In this document: positions 16,817 through 22,791 of the stretch, in pieces
Layout of the letters: the number at the start of each line of letters is the position of its first letter
How positions within the stretch are numbered: position 1 is the first letter of the stretch
NCBI RefSeq assembly: GCF_023015615.1
Contig: NZ_JALKAJ010000002.1
Span: 496,001 to 560,000, forward strand
Direction of reading: 5' to 3'
Source: Qipengyuania sp. S6317L1
GTDB lineage: Bacteria > Pseudomonadota > Alphaproteobacteria > Sphingomonadales > Sphingomonadaceae
DNA length: 64,000 bases
Made by a program: the position numbers and the translations under genes
Notes under the pieces: model-generated
The model's input: the letters and a program-made list of their open reading frames with translations, nothing else
Databases searched by the model: none
Told to the model about the DNA's origin: nothing

Positions 16817-17896
16817 CTACTCCTGTTCTTCCATAAGCCCATGTTTTTTGATCGCGTGCCGCAGCTGGTCATAGCTCAACCCAAGCGCCTTTGCCGTCTG
16901 TCGCTGGTTCCAGCGATGCTTGCCAAGCGCGTGTTCAAGAATCGCGCGCTCGTGCGCCTCAACGGCAGAGCGAAGGTCATCGACCTTGTCCAGCTGTTCG
17001 CTTGGCGGGCCCTTGCTGGCAGAAACTGTGCCGTCGTCAGTTGCGATAGCGCCTGCTGCAGCGCCGGATGCGGCGCCAGAAACGGTGCCAGCAGAGCGCC
17101 GGTGCGAAGGTGCCGCGGGCTTCCACGGGCTTTCAAACGGGTCGAACTGCACATGGCCGATGGGGCGTCCCGGATCATCCCAGCGATAAACCGCGCGCTC
17201 GACCACATTGCGAAGCTCGCGAACATTGCCGGGCCATTCGTAGTTTTCGAGCTGCTCCGTCACATGAGAGGCAAAACCGGGCCAGTCGTGCCAGCGCAGC
17301 TCGCTTGACATGCGCCGCGCAAAATATTCCGCCAGCACCGCCACATCCCCTTCGCGCACCCGCAACGGAGGCAAGGTGATCACCTCAAAGCTCAACCGGT
17401 CGAGAAGGTCAGCGCGAAATTCGCCACTTTTGGCAAGTGTGGGAAGATCATCATTGGTCGCCGCCACAATGCGAACGTCCACCCGTACGGGGCGTGATGA
17501 ACCTATGCGTGTGACCTCGCCATATTCAACCGCTCTGAGCAACCGTTCCTGCGCACCCATCGATAGCGTGCCGAGCTCATCGAGGAATAGCGTGCCCTTG
17601 TCAGCCTCCTCGAAACGTCCGGCACGCGCTTTGGTCGCTCCTGTAAAGGCTCCGGCCTCGTGCCCGAAAAGCTCTGCCTCGATCAGGGTTTCAGGAAGGG
17701 CTGCGCAATTCATGGTGACGAGTGGCTCGCCCCAGCGGTCGGAGAGACGGTGGAGACGTTCGGCGATAAGTTCCTTGCCGGTCCCGCGTTCGCCAATGAC
17801 GAGCACCGGGCGGCTCATGGGCGCGGCCCTGGACGCGCGCTCGACCGCATCAAGGAAGGCGCCTGACTGGCCGATAAACTGGTTTTCGCGCTCCAC
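16817..17896 (-). CDS. pspF: Psp operon sigma-54-dependent activator PspF
   Basis: 359 aa from GTG 17896, which has a strong ribosome-binding site (GGGGAGGGACA). It is an AAA+ bacterial enhancer-binding protein without an N-terminal receiver or GAF domain, like enterobacterial PspF. Walker A GERGTGKE is at residues 35-42 and the sigma-54 contact loop GAFTGA at 82-87. LFLDELGTL (Walker B) and a C-terminal Fis-type HTH (WNQRQTAKALGLSYDQLRHA) follow. In the known system PspA binds and inhibits PspF until membrane stress. It is divergent from the psp operon it presumably activates. Confidence 0.93.
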   Translation of the reverse strand: MERENQFIGQSGAFLDAVERASRAAPMSRPVLVIGERGTGKELIAERLHRLSDRWGEPLVTMNCAALPETLIEAELFGHEAGAFTGATKARAGRFEEADKGTLFLDELGTLSMGAQERLLRAVEYGEVTRIGSSRPVRVDVRIVAATNDDLPTLAKSGEFRADLLDRLSFEVITLPPLRVREGDVAVLAEYFARRMSSELRWHDWPGFASHVTEQLENYEWPGNVRELRNVVERAVYRWDDPGRPIGHVQFDPFESPWKPAAPSHRRSAGTVSGAASGAAAGAIATDDGTVSASKGPPSEQLDKVDDLRSAVEAHERAILEHALGKHRWNQRQTAKALGLSYDQLRHAIKKHGLMEEQE

Positions 17897-18009
17897 TGTC
17901 CCTCCCCTGGGAATTGCAGCTCCAATCGGCCATTCGGCCCCACCCGCCAAGATATAGGAATTTTTCCCAATGCTTGGCAATAGTCGCCAGATGCAATATC
18001 GCGGAAAAA

Positions 18010-18045: not shown

Positions 18046-18061
18046 TGGCACACCCCCTGCA
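18046..18061 (+). promoter_or_regulatory. Sigma-54 (-24/-12) promoter of the psp operon
   Basis: TGGCACACCCCCTGCA: GG and GC dinucleotides separated by exactly ten bases, matching the sigma-54 consensus TGGCAC-N5-TTGCA with one mismatch. It lies 47 bp upstream of the first small gene and opposite pspF, as expected for a PspF-dependent operon. Confidence 0.85.
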
Positions 18062-18107: not shown

Positions 18108-18275
18108 ATGTACACCAAAGCATTCTTCCAAACCAAACTTGGCCAAGCCTCGCTCGCCAGCATCGTTGCCACGACAGCTATGGTTGCGCTCACCACGCAG
18201 ATGAACATGGTCGCCGCCGACAGCCACTTCGCGCAGCCCCACATCGCGTCCCCGATCAGCGTTGAGCTGGCGTAA
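18108..18275 (+). CDS. 55-aa membrane or exported peptide, first gene of psp operon
   Basis: ATG 18108 follows AGAGGGGACC. The peptide has a basic N-terminus (about residues 1-11), one hydrophobic segment (about 12-32, SLASIVATTAMVALTT) and a short polar tail ending SPISVELA. It resembles an uncleaved anchor or a signal peptide. No family recognised. Position directly behind the sigma-54 promoter and before pspA implies induction with the phage-shock response. Confidence 0.6.
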   Translation: MYTKAFFQTKLGQASLASIVATTAMVALTTQMNMVAADSHFAQPHIASPISVELA

Positions 18276-18289
18276 GCCCGATCCTTGAA

Positions 18290-18631
18290 TTGAGCAGGCA
18301 CCTGACCTTGACCAAGAAAGACGATCTTCCACTCGGACCGGAGCGCACGGGCGAAACCCCTACGCCCGACAAGAGCCTCGATGATGCGTTGTCCCCCGCA
18401 GGAGACGGCTCTTCAAAAAGCGCTCCGGTCCAAACGGAAGAAGAGGATGATCGTTTTATCCCTATCCTTGGCAAGAGGCTGTCGCGCCTCGACAAGGAAA
18501 TCGAGGCCTTGCGCACCAGCCCCACTCCGACGCAAAGTGAGTACCGGGCGTATGACGAGATCGACTCAGGCCAAGAAGTCGGCTCAAATGCGCAGAACAA
18601 AACAAACCCGTTTCTTGATGGAGTAGCCTTC
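18290..18631 (+). other. In-frame open upstream extension of pspA (possible alternative N-terminus)
   Basis: From TTG 18290 the frame is open through 114 codons into the pspA ATG without a stop. The predicted segment is acidic and low in complexity, but contains RLDKEIEALR, echoing the xEIEALR ending of the small downstream psp proteins, and its codons look like coding sequence. Canonical PspA starts at 18632 with its own ribosome-binding site, so this is either a longer PspA isoform or a decayed/fused small gene. Confidence 0.45.
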
Positions 18632-19318
18632 ATGGGCATTTTCAGCCGCACCAGAGATATTATCGCTGCAAACTTCACCGATATGCTCGACAAAGCGGAC
18701 GACCCGCAAAAGATGATCCGCATGATCATCCTCGAAATGGAGGAGACCCTGGTCGAAGTGCGCGCCTCTGCTGCGCGGACCATTGCCGACCAGAAAGAGA
18801 TGCACCGCCATGTGGTGAAGCTTGACCGCTTGCAGGCCGATTGGGCCGACAAGGCGCAGCTTGCCTTGTCAAAAGATCGCGAAGACCTCGCCCGCGCGGC
18901 TCTGGTCGAGAAGAAGAAAGCGGTCAGCATGGCTGATCAGCTGAAAGAAGAGATCGCTGTCCTCGACGATGCCCTTCGCGCTTACGAAGAGGACATTCAA
19001 AAGCTGCAGCACCGCCTCCGCGAGGCGCGCAGCCGCCAGACGCAGATCGCAGCGCGTCTTGAGAGCGCCGAGAACCGCGTGAAGCTGCGCTCGCTGATGA
19101 GCACAGAACGCACCGATGAAGCATTGAGCCGCTTCGACCAGATGGAACGCCGCGTCGATTACGCCGAAGGCCGCGCCGATGCGATTGCGATTGGCAATGA
19201 GGGCCCGCCCTCGCTGTCAGACGAAATCGCCGCGCTCGAAGGCCAGGATGCGATCGATGATGAACTTGAAGAGATGAAGAAGCTGCTCGGCAAGCCCGAC
19301 GCAGACAAAGGAGCGTAA
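18632..19318 (+). CDS. pspA: Phage shock protein A
   Basis: 228 aa ESCRT-III/IM30-family protein that binds stressed inner membrane and inhibits PspF in the resting state. It starts MGIFSRTRDIIAANF, the classic PspA amphipathic helix, with GGAG eight bases upstream. The rest is a long coiled coil (MADQLKEEIAVLDDALRAYE) and an acidic C-terminus. Two bases separate it from pspB. See the separate entry on the open frame upstream. Confidence 0.94.
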   Translation: MGIFSRTRDIIAANFTDMLDKADDPQKMIRMIILEMEETLVEVRASAARTIADQKEMHRHVVKLDRLQADWADKAQLALSKDREDLARAALVEKKKAVSMADQLKEEIAVLDDALRAYEEDIQKLQHRLREARSRQTQIAARLESAENRVKLRSLMSTERTDEALSRFDQMERRVDYAEGRADAIAIGNEGPPSLSDEIAALEGQDAIDDELEEMKKLLGKPDADKGA

Positions 19319-19320
19319 AC

Positions 19321-19626
19321 ATGGACGGAGACCTGATCATCATTTTCGGAGTGCTGTTCATCGCGCTTCCCTGGCTGATCCTGCACTACACCACGAAATG
19401 GAAAACAGCCGCGACCATCACTTCGGACGACGAAGTGCTTCTGGAAGAGCTCTACAATCTCGCCAAGCGCCTTGATGAGCGCATGGATACGGTCGAGCGC
19501 CTCGTCGCCCATGACGACCCCAGTTACACCCCGGTCAAGCGCCTTCAGGCCGACCAGGAACAGGACAACCAGCAACTGCGTGAGCTTGAACAGCTTATCG
19601 CCGAGAAGAAAGGAACCAGCGCATGA
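19321..19626 (+). CDS. pspB: Phage shock protein B
   Basis: 101 aa: one N-terminal transmembrane helix (about residues 4-23) followed by a coiled coil. LDERMDTVERLVAHDDPSY corresponds to the RIQALESILDAEHPNW region of enterobacterial PspB. It works with PspC to relieve PspA inhibition of PspF. The tail beyond residue 75 is longer than in E. coli. Its stop overlaps the pspC start by four bases (ATGA). Confidence 0.92.
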   Translation: MDGDLIIIFGVLFIALPWLILHYTTKWKTAATITSDDEVLLEELYNLAKRLDERMDTVERLVAHDDPSYTPVKRLQADQEQDNQQLRELEQLIAEKKGTSA

Positions 19627-20000
19627 ACCGCCGCACGACGCTTTACCGCGACAAGCACAACGCCAAATTGATGGGTGTTGCCGCGGGCATCGCAGATTAC
19701 ACCGGGGTCGAGGCCATTTGGGTGCGCCTTGGCATGGTGGCCCTCACCGTCTTTGCGCTGGGCCCGATTGGCTTCCTTGCCTATTTCATCATGGGCTTTC
19801 TGCTCCAGAAGAAACCGCCACACCTTTATCGTGACAGCGAAGAAGAGGTGTATTGGCAGCGCGTTCGCCAGAGCCCGAAGCGCACCGCCCGCGAAATCCG
19901 CGCGCGCTTCCGCGACATCGACCGCCGGCTTGCAGACGTGGAAACCCACTATGTGAGCAGCAACCAGCGCCTCACCGCCGAAATCGAGCAACTGCGCTAA
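19623..20000 (+). CDS. pspC: Phage shock protein C
   Basis: 125 aa with the PspC domain (LYRDKHNAKLMGVAAGIADY, then two hydrophobic segments near residues 33-60) and a basic, helical C-terminal tail. Envelope-stress sensor that acts with PspB. The last residues, LTAEIEQLR, match the ending motif of the six small proteins that follow, a likely shared interaction element. Confidence 0.93.
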   Translation: MNRRTTLYRDKHNAKLMGVAAGIADYTGVEAIWVRLGMVALTVFALGPIGFLAYFIMGFLLQKKPPHLYRDSEEEVYWQRVRQSPKRTAREIRARFRDIDRRLADVETHYVSSNQRLTAEIEQLR

Positions 20001-20027: not shown

Positions 20028-20294
20028 ATGCCAGCCGCAGAAGCCGTCGCAATGATCTTCGTTTGTGTTGCATTCTTTGCCGGATGCTGGGGGATCATCG
20101 ATTCAGTGCTCAAGCACCGCCGAAAGATGTTCGAGATGAAACATGAGCACGGTGCGGCAGGCAAAACGCTGACCCACGAAAACACCGAGCTTCGCGAAAC
20201 CGTGAGCCTGATGCAGGACCGTATCGCCGTGCTCGAACAGATCGCCACCGATCCCGCCCGCCGCACGGCGGATGAGATCGAGAAGCTGCGCTAA
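20028..20294 (+). CDS. PspB-like small membrane protein 1 of 6
   Basis: 88 aa. One transmembrane helix (about residues 6-26), basic KHRRKMFEMKHEHG, then a coiled coil with LMQDRIAVLEQIATD and the terminal TADEIEKLR. The DRIxxLExI core aligns by eye with RERIQALESI of E. coli PspB. It ends exactly at the EIEKLR motif, the shortest form in the array. It follows pspC by 27 bp. Confidence 0.75.
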   Translation: MPAAEAVAMIFVCVAFFAGCWGIIDSVLKHRRKMFEMKHEHGAAGKTLTHENTELRETVSLMQDRIAVLEQIATDPARRTADEIEKLR

Positions 20295-20339
20295 CCCGCA
20301 GCCGCCAACCGAACCTCACAAACTTGAAAGCTTGAACCC

Positions 20340-20654
20340 ATGGGCCCCGAACAACTTGTCTTCATGATCCCGATCCTTGGCATCCTGCTTGGATTCTTCG
20401 GTGTCTGGACCAAGCACAAGGAAAAAATCGCCACGATGCAACTCGATGCAACCGCGGATGCGACGGCGGAAAAAGCGGCGCAATACGCATCGCAGATCGC
20501 CAAACTCGAAGACCGTGTCCAGGTGCTCGAACGCATCGTGACGGACGGCGGATATGATGTTGCCACCCAGATCGAGGCGCTTCGCGATACCCGCTCGGTT
20601 GAAGACACTGGCTCAGGCGTTGCGCTCAATGTTTCCTCAAGGGAGAAAGCATAA
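20340..20654 (+). CDS. PspB-like small membrane protein 2 of 6
   Basis: 104 aa. Transmembrane helix about residues 6-24, then KHKEKIATMQ, an Ala/Thr-rich helix and LEDRVQVLERIVTDGGYDV with TQIEALRD. It continues into a tail GVALNVSSREKA, which recurs in relatives 3 and 5. The start of protein 3 overlaps its stop by one base (TAATG). Confidence 0.78.
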   Translation: MGPEQLVFMIPILGILLGFFGVWTKHKEKIATMQLDATADATAEKAAQYASQIAKLEDRVQVLERIVTDGGYDVATQIEALRDTRSVEDTGSGVALNVSSREKA

Positions 20655-21001
20655 TGGATTGGGGAAGCCCTGAATTCGTGATCGGGATCATCGCCGTCAG
20701 CTATGGCGCGTGGATCATCAACAACTGGATCCGCGCGAAGCACGGCTATGAACTCGAAGACGAGTGGGGCGGCAAGTCGACCCCCAAGGCCGACAACGCC
20801 GAAACCAAGCGTCTCAAGGCCGAAAACGCCGAGCTCAACAGCAAGCTGGATCATATGCAGGACCGCATGATCGTGCTTGAAAAGATCGTCACCGACAAAG
20901 GTTATGGCCTTGCCGACGAGATCGAGGCACTTCGCGATGTGCCGAGCAAATCTGATGCCGGCATCCCCCTTAACCTCAATACAAAAGAGAAACAGTCATG
21001 A
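20654..21001 (+). CDS. PspB-like small membrane protein 3 of 6
   Basis: 115 aa. Transmembrane helix about residues 8-25, then the juxtamembrane IRAKHGYELEDEWG also seen in protein 4 and a coiled coil with MQDRMIVLEKIVTDKGYGL. LADEIEALRD and the tail GIPLNLNTKEKQS follow. Its stop overlaps the start of protein 4 by four bases (ATGA), so the products are translationally coupled. Confidence 0.78.
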   Translation: MDWGSPEFVIGIIAVSYGAWIINNWIRAKHGYELEDEWGGKSTPKADNAETKRLKAENAELNSKLDHMQDRMIVLEKIVTDKGYGLADEIEALRDVPSKSDAGIPLNLNTKEKQS

Positions 21002-21357
21002 GCCCTGACGCAGCAGCCGTTATCATTCCCAATCTGCCGTGGATCATCGGCGGCGCTCTGGCGGTTGGCGGAGCAGGCGTGATGGGGTGGATCTACACCA
21101 CGCGCCTTCGCATCAAACATGGCTATCCTCTTGAGGGCGCTTGGGGTCAGGCAATCAAGCCTGTTTCCGACCACGAAGCCAAACAACGCGTGACCTTGCT
21201 GACACAGGAAAACGCCGAGCTTCGCGCAGAGTTGGGCGCGGTGAAAGACCGCCTCTCCAATGTCGAGCGCATCGTCACCGATGGCAGCTATCAATTGTCG
21301 AGCGAGATCGATCAGCTTCGCTCGCTCGAGAACCAGAAGGATGCAGGGAGCGCATAA
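20998..21357 (+). CDS. PspB-like small membrane protein 4 of 6
   Basis: 119 aa. Transmembrane helix about residues 14-33, RLRIKHGYPLEGAWG, then ENAELRAELGAVKDRLSNVERIVTDGSYQL (as separate heptads) and SSEIDQLR. It has the same juxtamembrane block as protein 3, indicating recent duplication of these two. Stop and next start overlap by one base (TAATG). Confidence 0.78.
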   Translation: MSPDAAAVIIPNLPWIIGGALAVGGAGVMGWIYTTRLRIKHGYPLEGAWGQAIKPVSDHEAKQRVTLLTQENAELRAELGAVKDRLSNVERIVTDGSYQLSSEIDQLRSLENQKDAGSA

Positions 21358-21707
21358 TGAGCGGCTGGGTCATCGTTGCCATCATCGGGATCGTGGTTTG
21401 GGGCATCGTCCAGGCCGCCAAGGCAAAGGCCGGGATCATCTCGGATGAAGACGGTAACGAAACCTATATCGGCACATCGGACGGCGCAACGCGCGAAGAG
21501 ACCGAGGCAATGCGCGCCGAGATGAAGCAGCTTCGCGAGCGCCTTCAGGTGCTGGAGCGGATTGCCACGGATAACAATTCCCTCGATTCCCGCGAACGCG
21601 CGCGCATTTCGGCCGAGATTGAAGCTTTGCGGGACACGAAAGACACTCCAAATGACAGTGGAGCTCCCCTCCCCGCCGCGTCAAAGAAAAAGGAGCAGAG
21701 CCAATGA
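21357..21707 (+). CDS. PspB-like small membrane protein 5 of 6
   Basis: 116 aa. Transmembrane helix at the very N-terminus (about residues 4-21), an acidic spacer, then LRERLQVLERIATDNNSL, closest of the six to the enterobacterial PspB RERIQALESI core, followed by ISAEIEALRD. The tail (GAPLPAASKKKEQSQ) is related to those of proteins 2 and 3. A longer frame is open upstream, but the ATG at 21357 fits the gene packing. Overlaps the next start by four bases. Confidence 0.78.
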   Translation: MSGWVIVAIIGIVVWGIVQAAKAKAGIISDEDGNETYIGTSDGATREETEAMRAEMKQLRERLQVLERIATDNNSLDSRERARISAEIEALRDTKDTPNDSGAPLPAASKKKEQSQ

Positions 21708-21961
21708 TTATGGACCCGACACTTGTCATTACCGCTGCTTGTCTGGTTGGAATTTGCGTGGTGGCCTTTGCTCTGCTGCGCGCATGGCAGGGTTGGCTTG
21801 ACTTGAAGCGTCAGGAACTCGAACGCGCGAATTCGCGCAAAGTCTTCGATGCCCCCGAAATCGAAGGCGGCGCGGGCGCAGGAGCGGCGCGGATTGAACT
21901 GGCCGACATGAAAGAGCGGATCAAGAAGCTCGAAGCGATTGCGAGTGGTGTAGAACTCTAG
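21704..21961 (+). CDS. PspB-like small membrane protein 6 of 6
   Basis: 85 aa and the most divergent. Transmembrane helix about residues 7-28, a basic segment WLDLKRQELERANSRK, a Gly/Ala linker, then a short coiled coil MKERIKKLEAIASGVEL. The ERIxxLExIA core is kept, but the TD and the EIEALR ending are lost. Likely last gene of the psp transcript; no clear terminator is seen before sufE, 47 bp away. Confidence 0.7.
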   Translation: MIMDPTLVITAACLVGICVVAFALLRAWQGWLDLKRQELERANSRKVFDAPEIEGGAGAGAARIELADMKERIKKLEAIASGVEL

Positions 21962-22008: not shown

Positions 22009-22434
22009 ATGCGCACCATGCGATCACTTGATGACATTCTGGAAGAATATGAATTTCTCGAAGGCGATGAGCGGTACGGCCTGCTGATCGAGCTTGGCCG
22101 TGAGTTGGAGCCAATGCCCGATGCGCTTAAAACCGATGCGACGCTGGTGCGCGGATGTTCGGCCTCGGTCTGGGTCTATCCCACCGATACCGACGGCGAA
22201 GGTTCGCTCCACTTCCTCGCCGACAGCAACGCCGCGATTACCAAGGGCATCGTCAGCCTTGTGATTTCGGCGGTGCAGGACAAACCCGCGAGCGAAGTGG
22301 CTGAGATGGACGTAGCAGGCGCCCTCGCCCCGTTTGACCTCAAGAACCAATTGTCCAGCAACCGCACTCAAGGCGTCCCCAACATGATCGCGCTGGTAAA
22401 AGAGCACGCCGCCCGGCTCGCCGAGGCAGGGTAA
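22009..22434 (+). CDS. sufE: SufE-family cysteine desulfurase activator
   Basis: 141 aa. SufE accepts persulfide sulfur from the SufS cysteine desulfurase for iron-sulfur cluster assembly. The acceptor Cys is Cys50 in LVRGCSASVW, the expected motif. The rest (SLDDILEEYEFLEG, then GVPNMIALVKEHA) follows the family. A second Met three codons in (22018) is an alternative start. The DUF454 gene follows within nine bases. Confidence 0.9.
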   Translation: MRTMRSLDDILEEYEFLEGDERYGLLIELGRELEPMPDALKTDATLVRGCSASVWVYPTDTDGEGSLHFLADSNAAITKGIVSLVISAVQDKPASEVAEMDVAGALAPFDLKNQLSSNRTQGVPNMIALVKEHAARLAEAG

Positions 22435-22443
22435 GCGCGCGGG

Positions 22444-22791
22444 ATGCGGCGCGTCTATTTCGCCGCAGGGCTATTCTTCTTTGCGCTTGGCGCGGCTGGC
22501 ATACCCTTGCCGCTACTGCCCACTGTGCCCTTCTGGCTGCTTGCGGTCTTCTTTTTTGCGCGCAGCAACAAGGCATGGGAGGAGCGGCTCCTCAACCATA
22601 AGCAATTTGGTCCGCAAATCCGCGATTGGCGAACACGCGGAGCCATCTCGCGGCAGGCCAAGGTCATGGCAATCGGTTCAATCGCCGCAGGCGTGGTGTT
22701 CACCTGGGCGACGATCGGTTTCCCCTGGGCGTGGATCTCTGTGGGAGCGCTGGCCATTTTCGGCCCCTGGATTGCAACCCGGCCCGAATAA
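22444..22791 (+). CDS. YbaN-family (DUF454) inner membrane protein
   Basis: 115 aa with the DUF454 signature: hydrophobic start, LPLLPTVPFWLLAVFFFARS and LLNHKQFGPQIRDW, then two further hydrophobic helices. Function unknown; homologues often sit near iron-sulfur or heme genes. Probably co-transcribed with sufE. It converges with crtZ. Confidence 0.87.
   Translation: MRRVYFAAGLFFFALGAAGIPLPLLPTVPFWLLAVFFFARSNKAWEERLLNHKQFGPQIRDWRTRGAISRQAKVMAIGSIAAGVVFTWATIGFPWAWISVGALAIFGPWIATRPE

Follow-up and report, generated by a model that had tools for sequence, protein, structure and literature searches.

The Psp stress response has been studied mostly in enterobacteria, where each of its proteins is present in one copy. 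According to the passages cited here, PspB and PspC associate through their membrane regions (PMC3068692), and under stress the C-terminus of PspC binds PspA, for which V125 in Yersinia and V105 in E. coli is required (PMC6003685). This recruitment of PspA is thought to free PspF (PMC6003685, PMC3068692), while the manner in which the signal passes from PspB and PspC to PspA is described as a question still open (PMC6003685). It has also been stated that PspB duplicates, with AOL22920.1 as the example, occur in psp operons and that PspC can bear a divergent C-terminal PspB domain (passages of PMC11237479), and psp genes were reported in all Qipengyuania strains studied (passage of PMC9241875). 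Here we focus on a stretch of 64,000 nucleotides (nt) from the 3.14-Mb genome of Qipengyuania sp. S6317L1, hereafter the window, in which six small genes, referred to as the array, follow pspC. The array consists of translationally coupled, diversified paralogues of one small family and forms an accessory cassette of the psp operon. The cassette is real and conserved and its first outline is already in print; its function we infer from the evidence presented below.

An earlier note on the window had listed six genes of 88, 104, 115, 119, 116 and 85 amino acids (aa), and all six open reading frames (ORFs) exist at these lengths and in the places it gave. They are set out below with their class, as obtained by clustering 593 array proteins from 113 loci, and with the ratio of nonsynonymous to synonymous substitution rates (dN/dS); the V105 position is the residue standing on V105 of E. 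coli PspC.

20028..20294, plus strand: array gene 1, class J, 88 aa; dN/dS 0.25-0.29.
20340..20654, plus strand: array gene 2, class A (a core class), 104 aa, V at the V105 position; in 111 of 113 loci; dN/dS 0.10-0.17.
20654..21001, plus strand: array gene 3, class E, 115 aa, with KHGYxLExxWG and V at the V105 position; in 49 of 113 loci.
20998..21357, plus strand: array gene 4, class C (a core class), 119 aa, V at the V105 position; in 106 of 113 loci; dN/dS 0.07-0.09 (two computable pairs of three).
21357..21707, plus strand: array gene 5, class D, 116 aa, ATG at 21357, A at the V105 position; in 89 of 113 loci; dN/dS 0.06-0.11.
21704..21961, plus strand: array gene 6, class B, 85 aa, terminal in the array, without TD and the EIEALR tail; dN/dS 0.06-0.09.

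The junctions between these genes measure +45, -1, -4, -1 and -4 nt, so that four of five are overlaps of 1 or 4 nt and the claim of overlaps nearly throughout holds with +45 as the exception. Each protein has one N-terminal hydrophobic stretch with no K/R ahead of it and two to five K/R in the following 15 residues, and the coil is therefore predicted to be cytoplasmic. The predicted topology has the N-terminus outside and the C-terminus inside, with one membrane helix followed by a coiled coil that mostly ends in [EQ][IV][DE]xLR. One membrane helix plus a coiled coil is predicted for all six, as the earlier note had proposed, although ORF3 with a mean hydropathy of 1.58 falls slightly under the threshold of 1.6 that defined a membrane stretch. 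Across the related loci, 458 of 510 array proteins are above this threshold, which fits, by prediction, a single N-terminal membrane helix and a cytoplasmic coil. The structure model of ORF3 has helices at residues 6-30 and 48-94, at modest confidence (pLDDT 69, pTM 0.28).

The core [DE]RxxxLExI[VA]TD, which had been attributed to all six proteins, is exact in ORFs 1, 2, 3 and 5 and carries V for L in ORF4, while ORF6 has its first half only (ERIKKLEAIASG), with neither TD nor an EIEALR tail. A GxPLN tail ascribed to ORFs 2, 3 and 5 is only approximate in ORF5. The window has 555 open frames no shorter than 60 codons. Exactly five of them contain the core, all within the array, which is beyond chance. 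Searched against the whole genome, the array profile recovered the six array proteins and PspC (E 8.4e-5), and beyond these a single marginal hit (E 0.018). The family is large, since 7375 of 8000 scored database candidates match an alignment of the six at E <= 0.01. The named proteins among the best 120 matches are hypothetical or uncharacterised and come from Erythrobacter, Aurantiacibacter, Croceicoccus, Sphingorhabdus and relatives; AOL22920.1 is presumably an Erythrobacter protein too.

The class order in the window is J-A-E-C-D-B. For the count of class order, 16 duplicates were dropped from the 113 operons to leave 97 distinct ones, and four more were dropped as not reaching sufE. In the remaining 93, class B is terminal without exception (93/93) and class A comes first, after an optional J, in 92. 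All 88 operons having classes A, B and C keep the order A...C...B, and class E lies between A and C in all 40 operons that have E together with both neighbours. Gene number varies from three to nine. Of 80 named loci seeded with PspA, 76 have both pspC and sufE (L030, L066, L074 and L080 are on contigs of 5-9 kb), and these 76 hold three array genes in two loci, four in 14, five in 27, six in 17, seven in 11, eight in four and nine in one. Successive genes overlap by 1 or 4 nt in 403 of 480 pairs, a count that includes duplicate genomes. Compared with three close relatives, dN/dS is 0.06-0.31 in 16 of 18 gene pairs, with two not computable and many dS values near saturation. The six genes are thus under purifying selection, and they are an ordered cassette of orthologous classes and not a loose recent expansion. 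Chance ORFs are ruled out by the conservation and by the dN/dS values of the 16 computable pairs, and recent tandem copying by the conserved class order.

The cassette is widespread in the genus and in the family. The genus is represented by 37 genomes, that of the window included; 35 match the six-gene profile three times or more, and the other two, which are 95% and 72% complete, match it once and weakly. A family survey at E <= 0.001 covered 249 genomes of 96 genera, of which 235 match the array profile and 235 match the PspC model, 229 of the latter above the PspC cut-off. Array and PspC occur together in 234 genomes and are both absent from 13, which span seven genera; the array alone was found in one (G288, 66% complete) and PspC alone in one (G302, in 660 contigs, with a weak PspC match at E 3e-14). 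These counts have their limits, as the array profile can match PspC itself, 13 of the 235 genomes have just one or two matches, and some PspC matches are weak (E 3e-14 in G247 and 1e-11 in G422, for example). Therefore, one locus per genus was read in 60 genera, in genomes picked for a listed PspC match. At least one array gene follows pspC in 59 of these and at least three in 55, with class B terminal in 54 of the 59. Overlaps of 1 or 4 nt make up 77 of 200 junctions in this sample, against 403 of 480 above, and coupling is thus tighter in the lineage of the window. Beyond the family but within the order, 24 genomes were searched with the six-gene profile, and at E <= 0.01 it matched 18 of them, although some of these matches may be PspC, which 19 of the 24 have. 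The cassette is linked to the psp genes and is missing together with them, the exceptions being G288, G302 and one locus of the genus sample (L248). As a side observation, genome G437 has two loci of array genes and pspC about 41 kb apart (C3 near 3580k and 3622k), in opposite orientation and with equal scores, perhaps a duplicated psp operon.

The array lies among the following features:

16817..17980, minus strand: pspF, sigma-54 activator, divergently oriented (TIGR02974 479.1 bits, cut-off 443.55).
18046..18061, plus strand: sigma-54 type -24/-12 site TGGCACACCCCCTGCA, upstream of pspA.
18632..19318, plus strand: pspA from its canonical MGIF start (TIGR02977 280.5 bits, cut-off 242.95).
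19321..19626, plus strand: pspB (TIGR02976 85.3 bits, cut-off 51.7).
19623..20000, plus strand: pspC (TIGR02978 125.8 bits, cut-off 104), ending in TAEIEQLR as the earlier note had said.
22009..22434, plus strand: SufE-type gene, the syntenic flank of the cassette (PF02657 110.8 bits).

Each of pspF, pspA, pspB and pspC exceeds its own curated cut-off. The cassette begins 27 nt after pspC and stops 47 nt short of the SufE-type gene, which is present in 56 of the 60 genus stretches. We take the site at 18046 to follow the -24/-12 consensus of sigma-54. A scan of 108 loci, duplicate genomes included, found this motif between pspF and pspA in 70 and inside the interval from pspC to sufE in none; the motif is strict and missed 38 of the 108, and its background is 0.03 per kb and strand. 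That the six genes belong to the psp locus, as had been claimed, is thus borne out by the placement of the sigma-54 type site, by conserved synteny and by the joint absence with PspC. The genome has a single PF04012 match, the only PspA found in it (the closest named PspA, 97%, is from Erythrobacter longus), and a second PspA was therefore rejected as an explanation of the array.

The array proteins have features of both PspB and PspC. Like PspB (PF06667/TIGR02976), they are small, with one predicted N-terminal membrane helix and a predicted cytoplasmic coil of the form ER(I/V)xxLExI, and are encoded in the same operon. Unlike PspB, most of them run on into TD..[EQ][IV][DE]xLR, and the operon keeps its own true PspB. 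With the C-terminal domain of PspC (TIGR02978 77-121) they share an ungapped alignment of core and tail, V on V; they differ from PspC in having one membrane helix and no PspC domain (PF04024 has no match in any of the six). When the related loci were searched at E <= 0.01 with a profile built from the six alone, 66 of their 114 PspC ORFs matched (best 1.2e-6) but none of their 114 PspB ORFs did, whereas the iterated profile, which had absorbed PspC, matches E. coli PspB at E 1.8e-6 and E. coli PspC at 0.0054. In hhalign, with PspB and PspC taken from outside the family, the combined array profile scores 89.6% with PspB (60 columns), 86.1% with PspC and 88.1% with the PspC C-terminus, from whose profile one of the ten PspC (L139) had fallen out. 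The controls give 1-3% for reversed array proteins, 8% for PspA and 6.6% for PspB against PspC. With scores this high to all three, the family lies, as far as profiles can tell, between PspB and the C-terminus of PspC and bridges them, tying together two proteins whose own profiles barely match. A search for a solved structural relative gave only generic coiled coils (best E 0.0096), and none was accepted.

The alignment with PspC places the array core on the very residue reported to be required for PspA binding. Residue 105 of E. coli PspC is the V of MERYVTSD, and in the ungapped alignment the V/A of LExI[VA]TD stands on the V of PspC ExxVTS. The core was recognised in 501 of 510 array proteins. 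At the V105 position 251 have A and 234 have V, the latter nearly uniform in class A (89/95), class E (42/42) and class C (89/90). The tail [EQ][IV][DE]xLR is found in 401 of 505 distinct array proteins (an earlier count of 301 of 510 used a different pattern) and at the C-terminal end of PspC in 95 of 96. The TD..EIExLR part is present in PspC and missing from the PspB sequences read. In the model of the window PspC, helices are placed C-terminally at 85-113 and 115-124, again at modest confidence (pLDDT 76, pTM 0.44). Separately, the PspC of this lineage reads ExxYV (19623-20000 in the window), as opposed to ExxV/I in E. coli and nine other PspC read.

For a similar helix encoded in the same operon, the simplest role is in the same complex as PspB and PspC. 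Our main reading, to which we assign a probability of about 0.5, is that the array proteins are additional membrane-anchored subunits of the PspB-PspC complex which dock PspA. The cassette would be produced together with the psp proteins from the PspF/sigma-54 promoter, on one transcript, and its products would join the PspB-PspC complex via their membrane helices. Their PspC-like helices, foremost those of classes A, E and C, would then serve as extra or substitute docking sites for PspA, and docking there would tune the release of PspA from PspF and the site at which PspA assembles on the membrane. If so, the cassette suggests a richer stress sensor than that of E. coli. In this large family of environmental bacteria, a single operon has up to nine diversified small proteins with a similar helix in fixed order, and these naturally occurring variants could be used to map PspA docking.

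Several results weigh against this reading. Classes J, F, H, D, B, I and G mostly have A at the V105 position, and class B is without TD and tail altogether (0/91). The lineage's own PspC has Y at the V105 position and its V one residue further on in 95 of 96, so that PspA docking in the canonical register cannot be taken for granted in its case; this tells against reading the array core as simply the same as PspC here. All six proteins miss the curated cut-offs, both for PspB (best 14.0 against 25.6 bits for PF06667 and 19.3 against 51.7 for TIGR02976) and for PspC (best 19.2 against 104 bits for TIGR02978). PspB, which lacks a tail of the EIExLR type, is the better match for eight of the ten class profiles (A, B, D, E, F, H, I and J), for class B only weakly (19%), and PspC is the better match for C and G alone. 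In addition, coiled coils align easily. Finally, psp genes can do without the array: L248, one of the 60 genera, carries psp and sufE with no array gene beside pspC, and elsewhere in the order, G041 and G054 possess PspC while showing no array match at E <= 0.01.

In the main rival, the array proteins would have no role towards PspF and would be effectors in place of regulators: they would form a scaffold in the membrane that supports the polymerisation or positioning of PspA, a relative of ESCRT-III. The anatomy and the operon evidence fit such a scaffold too, class B lacks the PspC-like tail, and a gene number varying between three and nine under constant order is what structural subunits might display. 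However, the similarity lies partly in the very piece of PspC that is reported to signal to PspA, and we hold a scaffold to be a tentative alternative, well behind the docking of PspA by additional subunits. The array proteins might also be plain PspB duplicates, redundant and maintained by dosage or drift. Here the mention of PspB duplicates in such operons (passages of PMC11237479), the match of ORF2 to TIGR02976 over residues 5-69 (E 0.001), the lean of eight class profiles to PspB and the preference of the iterated profile for E. coli PspB all agree, but ordered ortholog classes with dN/dS well under 1 point to distinct functions, and the TD..EIExLR part is of PspC type; plain redundancy is therefore unlikely. 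Descent is a separate matter. The earlier note had proposed an expansion from pspB, and descent of the array from pspB is possible on the class and iterated profiles, while the missed PspB cut-offs, the absence of PspB ORFs from the matches of the six-gene profile and the PspC-type tail do not favour it.

A last alternative is that the cassette serves some other task, such as one of the adjacent sufE or anti-phage defence, and is merely co-expressed with psp. The constancy of sufE as its neighbour would fit, as would weak matches of ORF5 to PHROG 20118, whose function is not known (E 2.7e-6), and to PADLOC Avs3b (E 0.0067), and of ORF3 to the membrane protein PHROG 502 (E 0.0061). However, the PADLOC defence models gave no convincing match, with none for the other five proteins at E <= 0.01, and phage records searched with ORF5 and ORF2, the two tried, gave no match either; a defence or phage origin was rejected on these grounds. 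With array and PspC jointly absent in seven genera and with motifs common to the array, PspC and an extension of PspA described below, another task is highly improbable.

This extension lies in frame ahead of pspA:

18308..18631, plus strand: N-terminal PspA extension from a TTG start, carrying SRLDKEIEALRTSPTPTQ, conserved as protein.

MGIF was found in 111 of 113 loci, and in all of these the pspA frame stays open upstream of it for 74 codons or more; the extension has the conserved pattern PLGPER ... SRLDxEIEALRxSPTPTQ ... FLDGVAF, with dN/dS of 0.34-0.45 in four comparisons. The expression E[IV]E.LR matches 89 of 95 distinct extensions and occurs in 23 of the 60 genera, although its wording was fitted after the sequences had been viewed and a first, narrower expression matched 18 of 95. 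The other mechanical ORFs of these loci that are at least 150 aa long, 764,393 residues in all, contain no match to it. A start codon lies at most 16 codons upstream in 81 of the 82 extensions having GPE[RPS], and all 95 have GGAG ahead of the internal MGIF start. Together, these features suggest two forms of PspA, the long one bearing the tail motif common to PspC and the array. A more far-reaching and rather doubtful idea is that this lineage moved and multiplied the PspA-docking helix. Its ground is the V shifted by one residue in the lineage PspC: classes A, E and C, which keep the E. coli-type ExxVT, would have taken over docking from the ExxYV PspC. The EIExLR helix would be borne by PspC, by the cassette except class B and, in cis, by the PspA extension, with the second start at MGIF giving a short form. 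The extension would then be a built-in mimic competing with the membrane anchors for the docking site of PspA, and the proportion of long and short PspA, together with the cassette members present, would determine recruitment.

The earlier note had suggested that the array may be an undescribed module, which stands only in part. No paper on the cassette was among the matches listed from the open-licence literature, but the clause on PspB duplicates (PMC11237479) describes the same kind of arrangement, extra PspB-like genes in a pspFABC operon. That clause gives no number, order, classes or spread, and the tail motif, the link to V105 and the PspA extension are absent from the passages of that paper.

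Relatives of the array are also found as single genes. These encode 71-92 aa in Emcibacter, Luteithermobacter, Hyphomonas and others and are annotated as hypothetical, with three labelled type II secretory component PulJ. Within the order but outside the family, six stretches (L136-L141) from five of the 24 genomes yielded single relatives of 74-90 aa. They have the same core and tail as the array and match it at 99.5% by profile, with 93.4-94.5% to PspB, PspC and the PspC C-terminus, but differ in being one copy per stretch and in lying mostly away from psp genes. The earlier note had counted homologues without psp genes against its own reading; L136, L137, L138, L140 and L141 are such cases as far as the stretch read is concerned, but their genomes do have pspC. 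In L139 the relative follows pspFABC and a second PspC-type gene. From a look at the sequences, the relatives at L137:6680-6904 and L140:6896-7168 lie near what we take to be an rpoD-like gene, and those at L136:7092-7325 and L138:6833-7093 beside a gene presumably of GAF type, free methionine sulfoxide reductase-like. When 190 genomes sampled across the class were searched with the single-copy profile, four had a match at E <= 1e-4, and three of these four belong to this family. In two genomes of another family of the phylum, short frames of 87 and 106 codons (G067:C40:132549 and G185:C6:454873) match the PspC model only over 42-120 and 72-121, and they may belong to a free small family reaching beyond the class.

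One further small gene precedes pspA:

18108..18275, plus strand: conserved ORF of 55 aa with a hydrophobic middle, between the sigma-54 site and pspA.

It has relatives in 109 of 113 loci and in 27 of the 60 genus stretches, and VE[LIM]A is frequent at their C-terminus. On the other side of the cassette, the SufE-type gene is followed by a DUF454 gene (22009-22791 for the two).

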